Positions 24,785 to 45,957 of a stretch of DNA of 48,151 nt are shown piece after piece; position 1 is the first letter of the stretch; each line of letters opens with the position of its first letter. This DNA is from Gammaproteobacteria bacterium (GTDB taxonomy: Bacteria; Pseudomonadota; Gammaproteobacteria; JAJPIJ01): positions 1-48,151 of the forward strand of contig JAJVHZ010000093.1 in the NCBI GenBank assembly GCA_022072255.1. Reading direction: 5' to 3'. The notes under the pieces are model-generated. The model was given only the letters and a program-made list of their open reading frames with translations. It was not told where the DNA came from and searched no databases. Position numbers and translations under genes: made by a program.

Positions 24785-25018
24785 TGGCGATCGGTGACGG
24801 CGGGGGCGGGTCGCCTCCCGCCGCGCGCGGCCGGCGTCGGGATCCCCGGCGGTCTGGAGCAGCGGTCGCCGACGCGGCGGGGCGAGTCGTCATGCCATAT
24901 CCGACCGGTGTCGATGCGTGTATACGGCGTCACAACCACAGCCGCCCCGGTCGCGGAAGAATATGGCTTGACCATTGCAGGGGATCGGGGGACGGACTAA
25001 GCTAATTCTCACAACTAA

Positions 25019-25053
25019 GAATCGATGCAAACGGCTTGATCCGGCATCGATTC
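25019..25053 (+). promoter_or_regulatory. Perfect 10-bp dyad upstream of the cNMP-binding/rhodanese gene
   Basis: GAATCGATGC (25019-25028) and GCATCGATTC (25044-25053) are perfect inverted repeats with a 15-base spacer. They lie in an AT-richer part of the 355-base gap after pntB, about 70 bases before the start codon. They could be an operator for a dimeric regulator or an mRNA hairpin. Confidence 0.45.
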
Positions 25054-25078
25054 GGCGAACGAACGTCAGCCTTCCCGG

Positions 25079-25098
25079 CTGTCCGGGGCAGCGGACAG
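25079..25098 (+). promoter_or_regulatory. Second leader hairpin before the cNMP-binding/rhodanese gene
   Basis: CTGTCCG (25079-25085) and CGGACAG (25092-25098) form a perfect 7-bp stem with a 6-base GGGCAG loop, ending 23 bases before the GTG start. Position near the ribosome site suggests an effect on translation. Confidence 0.4.
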
Positions 25099-25121
25099 TC
25101 CTCAGCCTACGGGACAAGTTT

Positions 25122-28085
25122 GTGGACGCAAGCCAGCTAAAAGAGCATTTTCGCCGCCTGGTGCCCTTCAATCGCCTGCGCGCACCGCAGCAGGAACGGA
25201 TACTCGGCAAGACCGAGGTGGTGGAACTGAGGCCCGGCGAAGAACTGTTCCGGCAGGGCAGCCAGGACTCCTACACCTACTATCTGCTCGGCGGATCGCT
25301 GGTCCTGAACGCCGACGGTGTGCGCGCCAAGAAGCTCGTGGCCGACACCGATGCCGCGAAATCGCCCCTGGGTCACCTGCAGCCGCGCCGCCTGAGCGCG
25401 GTCGCCGAGACCGGCGCTGCGGTCCTGAAGGTCCGCTCGGCGCTCATCGAGCGGGTGCTCGCGCCCAGGCCCGACGACGCGGAGAACCCACACGCCTTCG
25501 ACGACGTCGCCGAGGGCGAGGAGACGATGAACCCGGCGCTGATGGCGGCGGCCCTGAAGCCGGAGCTGTTCGGCAAGGTCCCGCCCGCCAACATGCAACG
25601 ACTGTTCAGCGTCATGGAATGGGTGAAATACAAGGCCGGCGACAATGTGATCCGGCAGGGCGACGTCGGCGACTACTACTACATCATCAAGGAAGGCAGC
25701 TGCGAGGTGCGACGGACGACCTCGGTCAGCGCGCACGGAATCAAGCTCGCGGAGCTCAAGCCCGGGGACGCCTTCGGCGAGGACGCCCTCATCTCCAATA
25801 TGCGCCGCAATGCCACCGTGCGCATGATCACCGACGGGGAGCTGATCCGCATCGGCAAGGACGATTTCAGCCAGCTCATCAAGGATCCGCTGCTCAAGTT
25901 CGTGACCTTCGAGGCGGCCTCGGAGAGGGTGCGTGACGGCGCGGTGTGGCTCGACGTGCGCTTCCCGGAGGAGTGCCGCAACGGCGCGCTGCCCGGCAGC
26001 ATGAACATCCCGCTGAACATGCTGCGCATGTACGCCGGCAAGCTCGACCCCGCCAGGACCTACATCACCTACTGCGACGACGGCAGCCGCAGCTCCGTGG
26101 CGGCCTTCATCCTGCGCGAGCGCGGATTCGAGGCGGCCTGCGTGGAGGGCGGTTGCGGGGCGCAGCTGGCGGCGCTCTACGCGCTGCACGCGCCGGGGTC
26201 GGAGAATCCCGACCTGACCGCCACCGTGATCCCGCGTCCGCTGGGGCAGACGGAGGGGCAGGAGACGGTGCCGATGGAGGAGGAGACCCTGCGCATCCTG
26301 GATCACCTCGCCTCGCTGCAGCTGTTCTCGAGCACGGCCGAGAAGGCCGTGATCCTCGATAAACCGCACATGCCGATCCCGCCGGATGCCGCCGCCCGTG
26401 CGGCCAACGAGCTGGCGATGCCCATCCTCATGGGCAAGGATCCGACCGCGACCAGGCCGCAGTTGCCGCCGTCCCTGGCAGCGGATGTCGACGGCGACGC
26501 GACGATCGTCAGTTACGAGGAAACACCCGTCGACGAGCCGGCCGCACCGCCGGCGGCCGCCGATCCACCGGCGCTGCAGGCCGCGGAGATCCGGTTGCGC
26601 GATCTCGAGGCCCAGTTGCGGTACGAGCGCGAGAGCGCGGAACGCCTCGGACGGGCGTTGCGCGATGCGGAGGTCCTGCTGGTCCGACAGGCCGAGGCGG
26701 CGAGCGCCGGCGCAGGCCAGGCGGCGGGCGCGGCGGAACCGGGCGCAGCGGAGAGCGAACGCGTGGAGGCGGCACTGGCCGCCGAGCGGAATCGGCTCGC
26801 GCAGGCGCACCAGCAGGAGCTCGCGAAAGTCGTGGCCGCCGAGCGCGAGCGTCTGGAGCGAGCGCATCGCGGACAGCTGGACGCGGCGCTGGCCGCGGAA
26901 CGGGATCAGGCCCAGCAGGCGAACCGCGAGGCGATCGAGGGCGCGGTCAGGGCGGAGGGCGAGCGGCTGGAAAGGGAGCGGCGCGCCGGCGCGGAGGCTG
27001 CACTGGAGGCCGAGCGCGCCCGCCTGCGGGAGCGGCACGCCGAGGAGCTTGCCGCCGCGCTCGACACGGAGCGCGCCCGCCTGGAGCACGCGTATCGCTC
27101 ACAGGTCGAGGAGCTGCAGGCCCGGCTCACCGAGAATATCGCGGTGCTGGAGCGCACCGGCGAACAGCTGCGCAACTATGAGACCGCCCTGCAGCAGAGC
27201 AGCGCAGTGTCGGCGGAACGGGACCAGCTCGAGCAGTCGTACCGCCAGCGCATCGAGGAGCTGGAGAGGCTCCTCACGGCGCAGTCGGAGGCCGAGGAAC
27301 TCCTGAGTGCCGATCGCCAGAAGCTGGCCGGGGAGCTGGCCGAGCAGCGCCGGCTGCTGGAGGAGGCCAAGCGGCAGCTGAAGGAGACGCCGGCACAGGC
27401 GCAGCAGCTGGAGCAGGCGACCGAGGCGCAACTGGCGGAGCTGCGCAAGATCCTGGGCGCGGAGTTCGCGCGCAACGCCGCGCTCGTGGAGCTGGCGCGC
27501 CAGGAGCGCTCCTCGGCGGAGGCGGCGCGCAAGCGTCTGGTCGAGCAGACCGAGCAGGTGTTCGCGGAGTATCGCGGCCGGCACGAGCGTGTGCGCATCC
27601 AGGAGGAGGACCGCGTGCGCGAGGAGCGGCGCCTCATGGAGATGGAACGCGGCTTCCTGCGTTCGGCGATGGAGGCGGCCAACCGCGTGCGCGAACAGGC
27701 CGAGCAGATGATCCGCCAGGCCGAGGAGCAGGCCACGCGCTTGCGCGCGCTCACCAGCACGCAGATCGACGCCATCGAATCCGAGGCGCGCAACGACATG
27801 AAGCGCGTGCAGGCCTCCATGCCGTGGTTGCGCGACGACAGCAGGGCCGACGCGCTCGCCGAGGCGGAGGTGCGCCTCGGGCAGGAGATCCGCCACCAGG
27901 TCGACGACATGCTGACGGCCAGGGCGCCGGCGCAGGTCGCCTCGGCCAAGATCCTCGAGCTGCAGCGCCAGGACATGGAGCGCATCCAGAAGCGCACCGA
28001 GGAAGTGAAGGTCGTCCAGAGCGGCGGCATGGAGCTCATCCGCGGCGGGCTCTCGGAGCTCGACGGCGCACCGGTCGCCGATTAG
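25122..28085 (+). CDS. Double cyclic-nucleotide-binding-fold/rhodanese/coiled-coil protein
   Basis: A 987-residue protein of unusual build. Residues 1-110 are a cNMP-binding-type domain with degenerate phosphate site. Residues 150-262 are a second one with a near-canonical phosphate-binding cassette (FGEDALISNMRRNATV, keeping the Glu and Arg). A rhodanese domain follows (about 265-360) with active-site Cys in YCDDGSRSS. After a linker, about 450-960 is one long Glu/Ala/Arg coiled coil with repeated AAERxRLxxAH-like units. No membrane segment or DNA-binding domain is seen. Function unknown; it may be a cytoplasmic scaffold gated by nucleotide and sulfur or redox signals. The GTG at 25122 is chosen because family similarity starts there (ASQLKEHFRRLVPFNRL) and upstream codons look non-coding; TTG at 24975 is the other option. 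Confidence 0.8.
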   Translation: MDASQLKEHFRRLVPFNRLRAPQQERILGKTEVVELRPGEELFRQGSQDSYTYYLLGGSLVLNADGVRAKKLVADTDAAKSPLGHLQPRRLSAVAETGAAVLKVRSALIERVLAPRPDDAENPHAFDDVAEGEETMNPALMAAALKPELFGKVPPANMQRLFSVMEWVKYKAGDNVIRQGDVGDYYYIIKEGSCEVRRTTSVSAHGIKLAELKPGDAFGEDALISNMRRNATVRMITDGELIRIGKDDFSQLIKDPLLKFVTFEAASERVRDGAVWLDVRFPEECRNGALPGSMNIPLNMLRMYAGKLDPARTYITYCDDGSRSSVAAFILRERGFEAACVEGGCGAQLAALYALHAPGSENPDLTATVIPRPLGQTEGQETVPMEEETLRILDHLASLQLFSSTAEKAVILDKPHMPIPPDAAARAANELAMPILMGKDPTATRPQLPPSLAADVDGDATIVSYEETPVDEPAAPPAAADPPALQAAEIRLRDLEAQLRYERESAERLGRALRDAEVLLVRQAEAASAGAGQAAGAAEPGAAESERVEAALAAERNRLAQAHQQELAKVVAAERERLERAHRGQLDAALAAERDQAQQANREAIEGAVRAEGERLERERRAGAEAALEAERARLRERHAEELAAALDTERARLEHAYRSQVEELQARLTENIAVLERTGEQLRNYETALQQSSAVSAERDQLEQSYRQRIEELERLLTAQSEAEELLSADRQKLAGELAEQRRLLEEAKRQLKETPAQAQQLEQATEAQLAELRKILGAEFARNAALVELARQERSSAEAARKRLVEQTEQVFAEYRGRHERVRIQEEDRVREERRLMEMERGFLRSAMEAANRVREQAEQMIRQAEEQATRLRALTSTQIDAIESEARNDMKRVQASMPWLRDDSRADALAEAEVRLGQEIRHQVDDMLTARAPAQVASAKILELQRQDMERIQKRTEEVKVVQSGGMELIRGGLSELDGAPVAD

Positions 28086-28150: not shown

Positions 28151-28240
<90 letters not shown>

Positions 28241-39133: not shown

Positions 39134-39207
39134 GGCTGAGTGGCAGAGTGGTCATGCAGCGGCCTGCAAAGCCGTGTACGCCGGTTCGATTCCGACCTCA
39201 GCCTCCA
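39134..39207 (+). tRNA. tRNA-Cys (GCA), first copy
   Basis: A 74-base tRNA with acceptor GGCTGAG/CTCAGCC, D loop with GG, anticodon loop CTGCAAA (GCA), TTCGATT T loop and encoded CCA. One flaw: the T stem GCCGG/CCGAC has a C-A mismatch at pair 50-64. Probably functional. Confidence 0.9.
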
Positions 39208-39267: not shown

Positions 39268-39342
39268 GGCTGGGTGGCAGAGTGTTCATGCGGCGGCCCG
39301 CAAAGCCGCTCAGGCCGCGTTCAAATCCGGCCCCAGCCTCCA
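39268..39342 (+). pseudogene. Second tRNA-Cys copy, aberrant or specialised
   Basis: A 75-base relative of the preceding tRNA-Cys. The acceptor stem GGCTGGG/CCCAGCC is perfect, and compared with copy one an A-T pair became G-C by changes on both strands. The anticodon stem is fully paired. The anticodon loop is CCGCAAA, so the near-invariant U33 is C. The D loop reads GT where GG is expected. The T arm has an extra C (GCCG-C-G against CCGGC). CCA is encoded. It could be a decaying duplicate or a tRNA-like RNA with another job. Confidence 0.7.
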
Positions 39343-42360: not shown

Positions 42361-44115
42361 ATGGAAGAGCAGGAAAAGACACTAAGCGACTACCTCGCCG
42401 CCCTGAAACGCCGGCGCAAGCTGATGACCGCGATCGTCGTCGGCCTGCTGCTGCTCGCGCTCGGCGTCACCTTCGGGCTGCCGGCGGTCTATCGCTCCAA
42501 GGCCGTGATCCTCATCGAGCAGCAGGAGATCCCCAAGGAGCTGGTGACCTCGACGGTGACCAGCTACGCCGATCAGCGCATACAGGAGATCACGCAGCGG
42601 GTGATGACCACGTCCAACCTGCTGGCCATCATCGAGCGGTACTCGCTCTACGAAAAGCAGCGCAGGAACGCGCCGCTGGAGGTGGTGGTCGAGAAGATGC
42701 GCGACGACATCAGCATCGACACCATCAGCGCCGATGTCGTCGATCCGATCCGCGGCCAGCCCACCAAGGCGACCATCGCCTTCTCGGTCTCCTACGAGAA
42801 TCGATCCCCGGAGCTGGCGCAAAAGGTCGCCAACGAGCTGACCTCGCTGTACCTGAAAGAGAACCTCACACGCCGCACGGAGGCGGCGACGGAGACCTCC
42901 GCCTTCCTCGCCGAGGAGGCCACGAAGCTGAAGAATCACATCGCGGACCTCGACCGGCGGCTGGCTGAGTTCAAGGAGCAGAACGCGGGCAAGCTGCCGG
43001 AGATGCAGCAGTTCAACACCCAGATGATGGATCGCACGGAGCAGCAGATCATCGAGCTCGACCGGCAGATCCGATCGCTGGAGGATCGCAAGGTGTACCT
43101 GCAGGGACAGCTCGCGCTGGTCAAGCCGGTGACGGCGACGGTATCGGAGACCGGCGAACGCATCCTCGGGCCGGCGGACCGGCTGAAGGTCCTGCAGACC
43201 CAGTACGTCTCGCTGCTGGCCCGCTACTCGCCCCTGCATCCCGACGTCGTGCGTACCAAGAAGGAGATGGATGCGCTCGAGGCGGAGCTCGGCGGCAGGA
43301 GCGACGCCGGCGCGGTCATCCAGAAGCAGCTCGAGGGTGCGCGCGCGGAGCTGGCGACACTGCGCGAGCGCTACTCGCCGAACCACCCGGACGTGGTCCG
43401 CGCCCAGCGCACCGTGGCCAACCTGGAGGCGGAGCTCGCGAGCTCGCGCGCGCGCCGCTCCACGGTCATCGACACCCAGGAGGCCGACAATCCCGCCTAC
43501 ATCCAGCTGCGCACGGACCTGGAGTCCGCCAATGTGGAGATCGCCTCGATACGCCAGCAGAAGGAGGCGCTGCGCGCGAAGGTCGCGGAATTCGAGCAGA
43601 AGCTCGCGGACTCCCCGGAGGTGGAGCGCGTGTATCGCGATCTGATGCGCGACTACGAGACCTCCACGCTGAAATACGAGGAGATGACGCAGAAGCAGAT
43701 GGCCGCCCAGGTCTCCCAGACCCTGGAGACCGAGCAGAAGGGCGAGCGTTTCAGCCTCATCGAACCGCCGCTGAAGCCGGAGAAGCCGGCCAAGCCGAAC
43801 CGGCTGGCCATTGCGCTGCTGGGCACGATGCTTGCGTTCGCCGGGGGGATCGGATCGACGGCGATCGCCGAGGCGCTGGACCCGGCGATATACGGGCGCA
43901 GCGCGCTCACGGCCCTGACCGGCGTGCCGCCGCTGGCGGTGATCCCCGAGATCGTCACGGCCGGCGAGCGGCGCACCCGGATGCTGATGCGCCTCGTCAT
44001 GTTCGTGGCGATGATCGCCGCCCTGGTCCTGGCATTGCTGGCGATCCACTTCTTCTATCAGCCGCTGGACGTGCTGTGGTTCCGCACCCTTCGAAAATTC
44101 GGTCTCGGCGAATAG
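42361..44115 (+). CDS. Wzz/GNVR chain-length determinant
   Basis: A 584-residue polysaccharide co-polymerase. Membrane helices at about 22-42 and near 550 bracket a long periplasmic coiled coil. The C-terminal GNVR-like segment PLKPEKPAKPNRLAIALLG precedes another hydrophobic stretch. Two copies of a YSPxHPDVVR...LEAEL unit lie at about 285-310 and 334-359. The tyrosine-kinase partner is a separate gene just downstream. The ribosome site is weak. Confidence 0.92.
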   Translation: MEEQEKTLSDYLAALKRRRKLMTAIVVGLLLLALGVTFGLPAVYRSKAVILIEQQEIPKELVTSTVTSYADQRIQEITQRVMTTSNLLAIIERYSLYEKQRRNAPLEVVVEKMRDDISIDTISADVVDPIRGQPTKATIAFSVSYENRSPELAQKVANELTSLYLKENLTRRTEAATETSAFLAEEATKLKNHIADLDRRLAEFKEQNAGKLPEMQQFNTQMMDRTEQQIIELDRQIRSLEDRKVYLQGQLALVKPVTATVSETGERILGPADRLKVLQTQYVSLLARYSPLHPDVVRTKKEMDALEAELGGRSDAGAVIQKQLEGARAELATLRERYSPNHPDVVRAQRTVANLEAELASSRARRSTVIDTQEADNPAYIQLRTDLESANVEIASIRQQKEALRAKVAEFEQKLADSPEVERVYRDLMRDYETSTLKYEEMTQKQMAAQVSQTLETEQKGERFSLIEPPLKPEKPAKPNRLAIALLGTMLAFAGGIGSTAIAEALDPAIYGRSALTALTGVPPLAVIPEIVTAGERRTRMLMRLVMFVAMIAALVLALLAIHFFYQPLDVLWFRTLRKFGLGE

Positions 44116-44124
44116 GCACCGATC

Positions 44125-44934
44125 ATGGAACGCATCAAACAGGCGCTCGAACGCGCGCGGCAGGAACAGGTTCGCAACATGGGTAGCGGCATGGTGCACC
44201 CGCTGGCCCCCATCGATGCGCCCGAGAGCCAGATCACCTACTCCGAGACGCGTGTCACGCCGGTCCCGCCGTCGGTGCTGAAGAAGAACCGCATCGTCAC
44301 CGGCATCGAGACCGACGAGGTGACGGCGGCCTACAAGATCCTGCGCACGCAGGTGCTGCAACGGATGGTGAGCAAGAACTGGAACGCGCTGGCCGTGACC
44401 AGCCCGGGCCCGGGACAGGGCAAGACCGTCACGGCCATCAATCTCGCCATCAGCCTCGCGCGCGAGGTGCACCACACGGTGCTGCTGGTCGATCTCGACA
44501 TGCGCCGTCCCAGCATCCACCGCTATCTCGGGCTGAATGCGCAGTTCGGCATCAGCGACGTGCTGACCAAGGGCACGCCCGTCAGCCACGCGCTCGTCAA
44601 TCCGGGGATGGACCGGCTGGTGGTGCTGCCCGGCAGGGAGGCGCTGCCGAACTCCTCCGAGCTGCTCAAGTCTCCGCGCATGGTGCAGCTGGTGAAGGAA
44701 CTGAAGTCGCGATATCTCACCCGCCTCATCATCTTCGACCTGCCGCCGCTGCTGTCGGTGGACGATGCCATCGCGTTCGCGCCCTACGTCGACGCGGTGC
44801 TGGTGGTCGTCGCCGAGGGCCTCACCACGCGCGAGGAGCTCCAGCACGCGAGCAGCCTGCTCGCCAACACGCCGGTCGTGGGTACCGTTCTGAACCGCTC
44901 GAGCGAGAAGGCGACGCCGTATTTCAACGCATGA
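44125..44934 (+). CDS. BY-kinase-like P-loop ATPase (CpsD/CapB type)
   Basis: A 269-residue cytoplasmic ATPase that would control polymerisation with the Wzz protein. Walker A is SPGPGQGKT (93-101), Walker A' LLVDLDMRRP (120-129), Walker B-like LIIFDLPPLLSVDD. It matches the tyrosine autokinase of exosortase loci. The C-terminus (TPYFNA) has a single tyrosine and no tyrosine cluster, so classical autophosphorylation on a tail is doubtful. It starts 9 bases after the Wzz stop. Confidence 0.88.
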   Translation: MERIKQALERARQEQVRNMGSGMVHPLAPIDAPESQITYSETRVTPVPPSVLKKNRIVTGIETDEVTAAYKILRTQVLQRMVSKNWNALAVTSPGPGQGKTVTAINLAISLAREVHHTVLLVDLDMRRPSIHRYLGLNAQFGISDVLTKGTPVSHALVNPGMDRLVVLPGREALPNSSELLKSPRMVQLVKELKSRYLTRLIIFDLPPLLSVDDAIAFAPYVDAVLVVVAEGLTTREELQHASSLLANTPVVGTVLNRSSEKATPYFNA

Positions 44935-45027
44935 TGTATCGATCTCACCTGATGGTGCGGGCACGATGGCCAGCCGCCGCCGCGGGCAGCGGGCAGCGGG
45001 CCATCCGGATACGAGCTGGTCGCTGAC

Positions 45028-45957
45028 ATGTACGAAGAATTCTACGGCCTGAAGGAGCGCCCGTTCACGCTGCAGCCCGACCCGGCGTTTCTCTACCTGA
45101 GCCGGCGCCACCGTTCGGCGATCACGCTGCTCGAGTACAGCATCGTCAGCCGCGCCAACTTCACCGTCGTCTCGGGCGAGATCGGCTCCGGCAAGACGAC
45201 CCTGGTGCGGCACCTGCTCAACCGTCTGGACCGGGACGTGACTGTGGGCCTCATCACCAACACCCATCGCGCGCTCGGCGAGCTGCTGCAGTGGGTTTGC
45301 CTGGCCTTCGGCCTGACCTACACCGGGCAGGAGAAGATCGCGCTCTACCAGCAGTTCATGGATTTCCTCATCGATCAGTACTCCAAGGGCCGGCGCACGG
45401 TGCTCATCGTCGACGAGGCGCACAACCTCGACGTCAGCACGCTAGAGGAGCTGCGGCTGCTGTCCAACATCAACGTCGACAAGGATCAGGTGCTGCAGAT
45501 GATCCTCGTCGGCCAGCCGGAGCTGCGCGAGACGCTCATGCGCCCGGCGCTCACCCAGCTCGCGCAACGGGTATCGGTGGCCTGCCACATCGAGCCGCTC
45601 AACCCGGACGAGACCGACGAGTACATCCGTCACCGCATCAGCGTTGCCGGGGGCGATCCCGACATCTTCAAGCCGGCCGCCACGCGCTTCATCTATCACC
45701 AGACCGGCGGCATACCGCGCATGATCAACAAGCTCTGCGACATGTCGCTGGTGTACGGCTTCGCCGAGCAGCGGCCACAGATCGACGTTAAGCTGGTGTT
45801 CGACGTGGTGCGCGAGCAGATCCAGGGCGGCCTGTCGTTCTACAAACTGAAGGGCGACAACGAGGGCGACGTGCGCGTCGGCGAGCTGCCGGCGACGCCG
45901 AACGAGGATCCCGATGTGGCCCCGCTGCGCATGCCCTCCCTGACGAAGAAGACCTGA
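45028..45957 (+). CDS. ExeA/GspA-like AAA ATPase (exosortase-locus type)
   Basis: A 309-residue ATPase. It opens MYEEFYGLKERPFTLQPDP, the standard ExeA-family start, has Walker A GEIGSGKTTL (50-59), Walker B TVLIVDEAHNL (124-134) and sensor ILVGQPELRETL. Size and neighbours match the secretion ATPase of XrtA/PEP-CTERM loci. The C-terminal peptidoglycan-binding part of ExeA is absent. Its exact role in export is unknown. Confidence 0.88.
   Translation: MYEEFYGLKERPFTLQPDPAFLYLSRRHRSAITLLEYSIVSRANFTVVSGEIGSGKTTLVRHLLNRLDRDVTVGLITNTHRALGELLQWVCLAFGLTYTGQEKIALYQQFMDFLIDQYSKGRRTVLIVDEAHNLDVSTLEELRLLSNINVDKDQVLQMILVGQPELRETLMRPALTQLAQRVSVACHIEPLNPDETDEYIRHRISVAGGDPDIFKPAATRFIYHQTGGIPRMINKLCDMSLVYGFAEQRPQIDVKLVFDVVREQIQGGLSFYKLKGDNEGDVRVGELPATPNEDPDVAPLRMPSLTKKT

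Follow-up and report, generated by a model that had tools for sequence, protein, structure and literature searches.

Tandem cyclic nucleotide-binding folds and a rhodanese domain on a long predicted coiled coil with a conserved tail in Gammaproteobacteria

Results

The gene examined here lies on a 48,151-nucleotide stretch of gammaproteobacterial DNA, the whole of which is called the window, and encodes two cyclic nucleotide (cNMP)-binding (CNB) folds, a rhodanese domain and a helical rod of ~500 residues (Table 1). It stands alone, with pntB 355 bp before it and a tRNA-Ser gene (28151-28240) after it; gdhA lies downstream and katG on the opposite strand (protein-coding gene names read by eye). 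The open frame extends upstream to 24975 and ends with the stop codon at 28083-28085. The GTG at 25122 is supported as the start because, in comparison with the orthologue of a second species of the genus (genome G001), the stretch before it has a dS of 0.025 and a dN/dS above 1, against a dS of 0.16-0.59 and a dN/dS of 0.02-0.39 inside the gene. The leader is nearly identical between the two species although the synonymous sites of the gene differ to that extent; it carries inverted repeats at 25019-25053 and 25079-25098, and it had no match in Rfam. The genome encodes RpoN. A sigma-54-like -24/-12 element, TGGCTTGACCATTGCA, is present at 24964-24979, a pattern that is at chance level (0.64 expected in the window), and to call it a promoter would be a guess.

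Table 1. Coordinates, in the window, of the gene, its leader and the parts of the encoded protein.
Feature	Residues	Position	Strand	Evidence
Upstream leader, nearly identical to same-genus orthologue; two inverted repeats		24964..25121	+	Orthologue comparison
Whole gene, 987 aa, GTG start		25122..28085	+	ORF and species-pair comparison
cNMP-binding domain A, degenerate	3-113	25128..25460	+	Second PF00027 stretch and CNB roll in model
cNMP-binding domain B	138-257	25533..25892	+	Pfam, structural match, model
Phosphate-binding cassette of domain B, GDAFGEDALISNMRRNATV	215-233	25764..25820	+	Alignment
Rhodanese domain, DxR at 278-280	258-357	25893..26192	+	Pfam, alignment, model, structural match, dN/dS 0.024
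Rhodanese active-site loop, C318-D-D-G-S-R323 (Cx4R)	318-323	26073..26090	+	Alignment
Linker, predicted disordered	358-480	26193..26561	+	pLDDT 31-50 over most
First rod helix	481-540	26562..26741	+	Full-length model
Six 19-residue repeats; spacer with between-species indel	553-666	26778..27119	+	Repeat test, orthologue comparison
Conserved C-terminal helical tail module	740-980	27339..28061	+	Alignment, tail profile matches

Pfam matched cNMP_binding (PF00027) in two stretches of the protein (2.6e-26, 91.8 bits) and Rhodanese (1.4e-9), and an AlphaFold model of residues 1-356, a ligand-free monomer built with 78 sequences, shows two CNB rolls and a rhodanese fold at a pLDDT of 90.5. The domain content that a first-pass annotation had read from the DNA is thereby confirmed, and so is its statement that a DNA-binding domain is lacking: Pfam found no DNA-binding family at E values up to 1, the C-terminal helix-turn-helix of Crp/Fnr type included. 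NCBIfam gave partial matches only, far under cut-off. The nearest solved structures to the head are the tandem CNB domains of PKA regulatory subunits and PKG; domain B superposes on CNB-B of PKG-I with a Z score of 19.1 (1.8 A over 124 residues), and on cNMP-bound PKG and PKA domains at 1.8-2.1 A.

Conservation in the head was counted in an alignment of 78 relatives. The cassette Glu is missing from domain A, which has P88/R89 ('PR') there instead in 78/78 and is degenerate across the whole family. Domain B keeps the Glu and Arg reported for it earlier: F218, G219, E220, R229, N230 and A231 are all invariant (78/78), within the pattern FGE(E/D)AL...RNA. If no ligand were bound, invariance of the cassette Glu, Arg and Asn over such diverse sequences would be difficult to account for; CNB-B probably binds a cyclic nucleotide. 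The residue after the cassette Arg is usually Ala, Ser or Thr; given the invariant Asn230 after Arg229, the ligand of CNB-B could differ. Five class III nucleotide cyclase matches in the same genome indicate that 3',5'-cNMP can probably be made.

In the rhodanese domain D278, R280 and E284 occur in 78/78 relatives, the Cys of the CDDGSR loop, already singled out in the first reading, in 76/78, G321 in 76/78 and R323 in 74/78, and the fold superposes on CoADR-RHD (Z 16.3). A Cx4R loop marks the sulfurtransferase type and a Cx5R loop the CDC25 type, and the Arg at the loop end is needed for the activity of yeast RDL2 (PMC8533005, PMC10135228). With C-DDGS-R, the window protein has Cx4R and not the Cx5R loop of CDC25/Acr2-type phosphatases, so its rhodanese would, on balance, be expected to transfer sulfur. 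The genome holds further copies of the core: one that is core alone with motifs intact (C43), and two short-coil copies without the rhodanese Cys (C35 and C79), of which C35 also lacks the cassette Arg, indicating that the fold can persist without the chemistry.

In the full-length model (a monomer with a pTM of 0.26, uninformative on oligomers) the rod consists of helices at 482-529, 542-752, 757-876 and 906-980, with pLDDT mostly 70-86. The repeated AAER units described in the first pass correspond to six consecutive, in-register 19-mers, the first being AAERNRLAQAHQQELAKVV, whose pairwise identity of 0.36 compares with 0.149 in shuffled sequences, the highest of 2000 shuffles reaching 0.23; the coil as a whole is not uniform, however, a fast-changing spacer being followed by a conserved tail. 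The hydrophobic period of the 19-mers is 94.75 degrees, or 19 residues per five turns, and this 19/5 periodicity differs from heptads or hendecads. That of the tail, 100.5 degrees, fits a coiled coil, and in most relatives the coil has its peak close to 100 degrees. The coil very likely oligomerises. The same-genus orthologue, which is 89% identical to the window protein over its full length, showed no TM helix, and no convincing solved homologue of the tail was recovered, the best match (7e-4) being a sensory rhodopsin transducer, followed by the generic coils of myosin and keratin.

Selection was estimated from one species pair, the window gene and its orthologue in G001. Purifying selection is strongest on the rhodanese (dN/dS 0.02), next on CNB-B (0.08) and then on the tail (0.15 over 740-905, 0.26 at the tail end), and weakest on the 19-mer spacer (0.39; 68% identity, with an indel); CNB-A and the linker have values of 0.15 and 0.20. 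In this comparison the heads and the tail are preserved and the middle of the rod looks like an adjustable spacer. That the coil is a frame artefact or a separate gene was ruled out: head and coil share a single open frame in ~20 gammaproteobacterial genomes, and purifying selection on the coil, with a dN/dS of 0.08-0.39 in this species pair, argues against an artefact. The view that the long coil belongs to the same polypeptide therefore stands, and the fold of a nucleotide pocket is present in the model. In L062 the tail module follows an in-frame stop, and in L074 and L106 it lies in another frame beside the core-coil frame; these displaced tails are probably assembly errors, a split gene being the alternative.

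The same tail also ends a pseudokinase-like protein, both in the window's genome (G000:C50, L056:7013-9538, minus strand, an 842-aa frame) and in G001 (G001:C27, L057:7437-10016, plus strand), at 41-44% identity to the window tail over the aligned part. Pfam recognised a partial kinase domain (2.2e-9), and the motifs VVIRE and VHGQFSETS, judged by eye, lack the catalytic Lys and Asp. The protein in G000 has a long AAEEV repeat as well. A tail profile scored 129-307 bits on most coil-tail proteins and 45-81 on four divergent ones; a mere match of composition was ruled out, since the pseudokinase-like protein reached ~200 bits, whereas the FGE-type relatives described below scored ~40 or less on their long coils.

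The cNMP-cNMP-rhodanese core forms a widespread and apparently unstudied family. It was detected at E <1e-40 in 44/94 relatives, most of them the single representative of a family of the class, and in 14/200 genomes across the phylum, five of them outside the class; among named genomes, 80 loci were recovered, nearly all of them labelled Gammaproteobacteria, Proteobacteria/Pseudomonadota or a subgroup. The relatives are mostly metagenome-assembled genomes; the hosts of the 80 loci include Methylohalomonas lacus, Thiohalobacter thiocyanaticus and Thiohalomonas denitrificans. The first-pass annotation had set short regulators apart from the coil protein; a short form does exist, but both are members of a single family that has at least three architectures. 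Of the three main ones, the commonest is the core alone, of ~350 aa, in Gammaproteobacteria and some other Pseudomonadota, which shares mostly 36-45% identity with the window core but is without coil or tail. The window's type, a grade with core, coil and conserved tail but no TM helix, spans 712-1382 aa, and the tail occurs in 15/274 class genomes. The third type (1300-2033 aa; L046-L054, L078, L134) likewise has the core and a long coil but continues into a TM helix followed by an FGE-sulfatase domain at the C terminus, and lacks the conserved tail; one member (L047) has an additional PP2C after the rhodanese, and an HU-family gene adjoins this group and close coil relatives in 9/16 loci surveyed. 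Pfam found no FGE-sulfatase in the window protein, and its orthologue has none either. In a 109-row tree whose root is not fixed, 59/61 core-alone rows fall together in a single clade, which excludes nearly all coil-bearing rows, and gain or loss of the coil has therefore been rare.

At no fewer than eight loci (L040, L041, L044, L061, L063, L064, L065, L068) a second core gene lies within a few kb of a coil-bearing one, and in two genomes (G123, G215) two tail genes are close together by their coordinates. The paired members at L044 and L061 fall in different subclades of the tree, so that these pairs appear to be old duplicates that have stayed together, as would fit a two-subunit rod. The window gene itself has no such partner beside it in its genome. 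Neighbouring genes were called from open frames without a gene finder. Across the loci surveyed, coil-tail genes had no conserved sulfur-metabolism neighbour nor any single conserved partner, and the neighbours seen (a two-component system, Fae, DUF520, DUF3301, polyphosphate kinase, HemD and a PreP-type peptidase) look like local synteny. A defence system was rejected as an explanation, the PADLOC matches being only to the CNB fold of PycTIR and to kinase folds, with no effector.

Discussion

Computation establishes the domain content, the cassette and catalytic-loop residues, the helical rod, the shared tail and the purifying selection. The explanation that we favour, with a probability of roughly 0.5, is that the protein is a cytosolic coiled-coil oligomer bearing cNMP-controlled sulfurtransferase heads. 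Each chain would carry a head made of the degenerate CNB-A, a CNB-B competent for cAMP or cGMP, and the rhodanese, tethered by a flexible linker of ~120 residues to a rod that, at 0.15 nm per helical residue, would reach ~60-70 nm at full extension. Its variable middle part would act as a spacer, and the conserved tail would set the oligomer and its partners, possibly including the pseudokinase with the same tail. Binding of cNMP to CNB-B might change the posture of the adjoining rhodanese and hence how readily the rhodanese reaches sulfane-sulfur donors or acceptors; the rod, for its part, would fix the number, spacing and place of the heads. Such gating of the sulfurtransferase by nucleotide is a tentative element, to which we give somewhat less than even odds. 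The broader view, in which a cNMP-gated sulfurtransferase scaffold is built on a modular core that is free, on a pseudokinase-recruiting rod or on a membrane-anchored FGE coil, is less probable still.

The individual domains are already known, as is the layout of a sensor head on a long coil. FrzS and AglZ of Myxococcus xanthus likewise combine an N-terminal signalling-type domain, a long coiled coil and, at the C terminus, a tail important for localisation (PMC1974792), but their head is a pseudo-receiver and not tandem CNB plus rhodanese, and the likeness is one of layout only. Single-domain rhodaneses such as RDL2 (CAKGVR) and DUF442 (CRTGTR) have the same Cx4R loop (PMC8533005) and CoADR-RHD the same fold, whereas the window rhodanese is fused behind CNB domains and onto a coil, without a CoA-disulfide reductase domain. 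Family 2B encapsulins also join cNMP-binding domains to a protein scaffold, and the cysteine-desulfurase operons of Family 2A include rhodaneses as accessory genes (PMC8346489); theirs is an HK97-fold shell, however, for which the window protein has no Pfam match. What is new is that the core is mostly a stand-alone protein of ~350 aa, that it has coil-tail and FGE forms, that the tail recurs on a pseudokinase-like protein and that coil-tail genes are often paired. We found no literature on the core or on its coil and FGE forms, in a search of incomplete coverage, so that an earlier mention is possible.

The tandem CNB folds that the head shares with PKA regulatory subunits and PKG suggest the most interesting rival, namely that the protein is the regulatory subunit of a pseudokinase complex, with a head resembling the PKA R subunit or half of PKG, tails that pair, and a rhodanese serving mainly as a redox or persulfide switch or as a docking surface. 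The tail common to the two proteins in G000 and G001 argues in its favour. As to differences from PKA and PKG, the window protein has no kinase in cis by Pfam and no cassette in CNB-A, and the rhodanese and the long rod are absent from PKA and PKG. Against this rival, the tailed pseudokinase turned up in just 2 genomes, both of the window's genus, with its gene on a different contig from the window gene, and the remaining proteins or frames with the tail are core proteins or second-frame tail fragments beside a core gene. The rival rests on two genomes, and we consider it unlikely.

The first-pass annotation had gone further and proposed a filament-forming scaffold under the control of a nucleotide and of sulfane sulfur or redox state, a model that would make the protein an intermediate-filament-like cytoskeletal element with controlled assembly. 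This exceeds the evidence. The long unbroken predicted helices and a rod length resembling that of bacterial coiled-coil-rich proteins are compatible with it, and FilP shows that such proteins can self-assemble into filaments (PMC6599971). Yet a spacer that varies so strongly between close species argues against a lattice-forming rod, the large globular heads sit on a flexible linker, and conservation is found in the tail and not across the whole rod. Filaments are thus possible but unsupported, and we regard this model as improbable. Equally improbable is that the rhodanese is the enzyme or sulfur carrier, the coil an anchor or multimeriser and the CNB domains structural only, a reading in keeping with the family-wide degeneracy of CNB-A and the degenerate paralogues in the genome but at odds with the invariant cassette of domain B.

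Most known bacterial effectors of cAMP and cGMP are transcription factors or channels, along with a small number of enzymes. If the favoured reading of cNMP-controlled sulfurtransferase heads on an oligomeric rod is true, a conserved cNMP pocket beside a conserved sulfurtransferase would connect a second messenger directly to sulfur chemistry. On the broader and less probable modular view, the core would tie second-messenger signals both to the chemistry of sulfane sulfur and to organisation in space. The family could then let a small signalling molecule control the place or timing of sulfur chemistry, and cultured hosts of its members, such as Thiohalobacter thiocyanaticus and Methylohalomonas lacus, make it testable.

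Elsewhere in the window, two consecutive tRNA-Cys(gca) genes (39134-39207 and 39268-39342) lie in a tRNA-Gly/Cys/Cys/Leu cluster. Further on, a Wzz-type chain-length protein (42361-44115) and an AAA_22 ATPase (45028-45957) are encoded, and an exopolysaccharide cluster seems to begin in the region 42361-45957.
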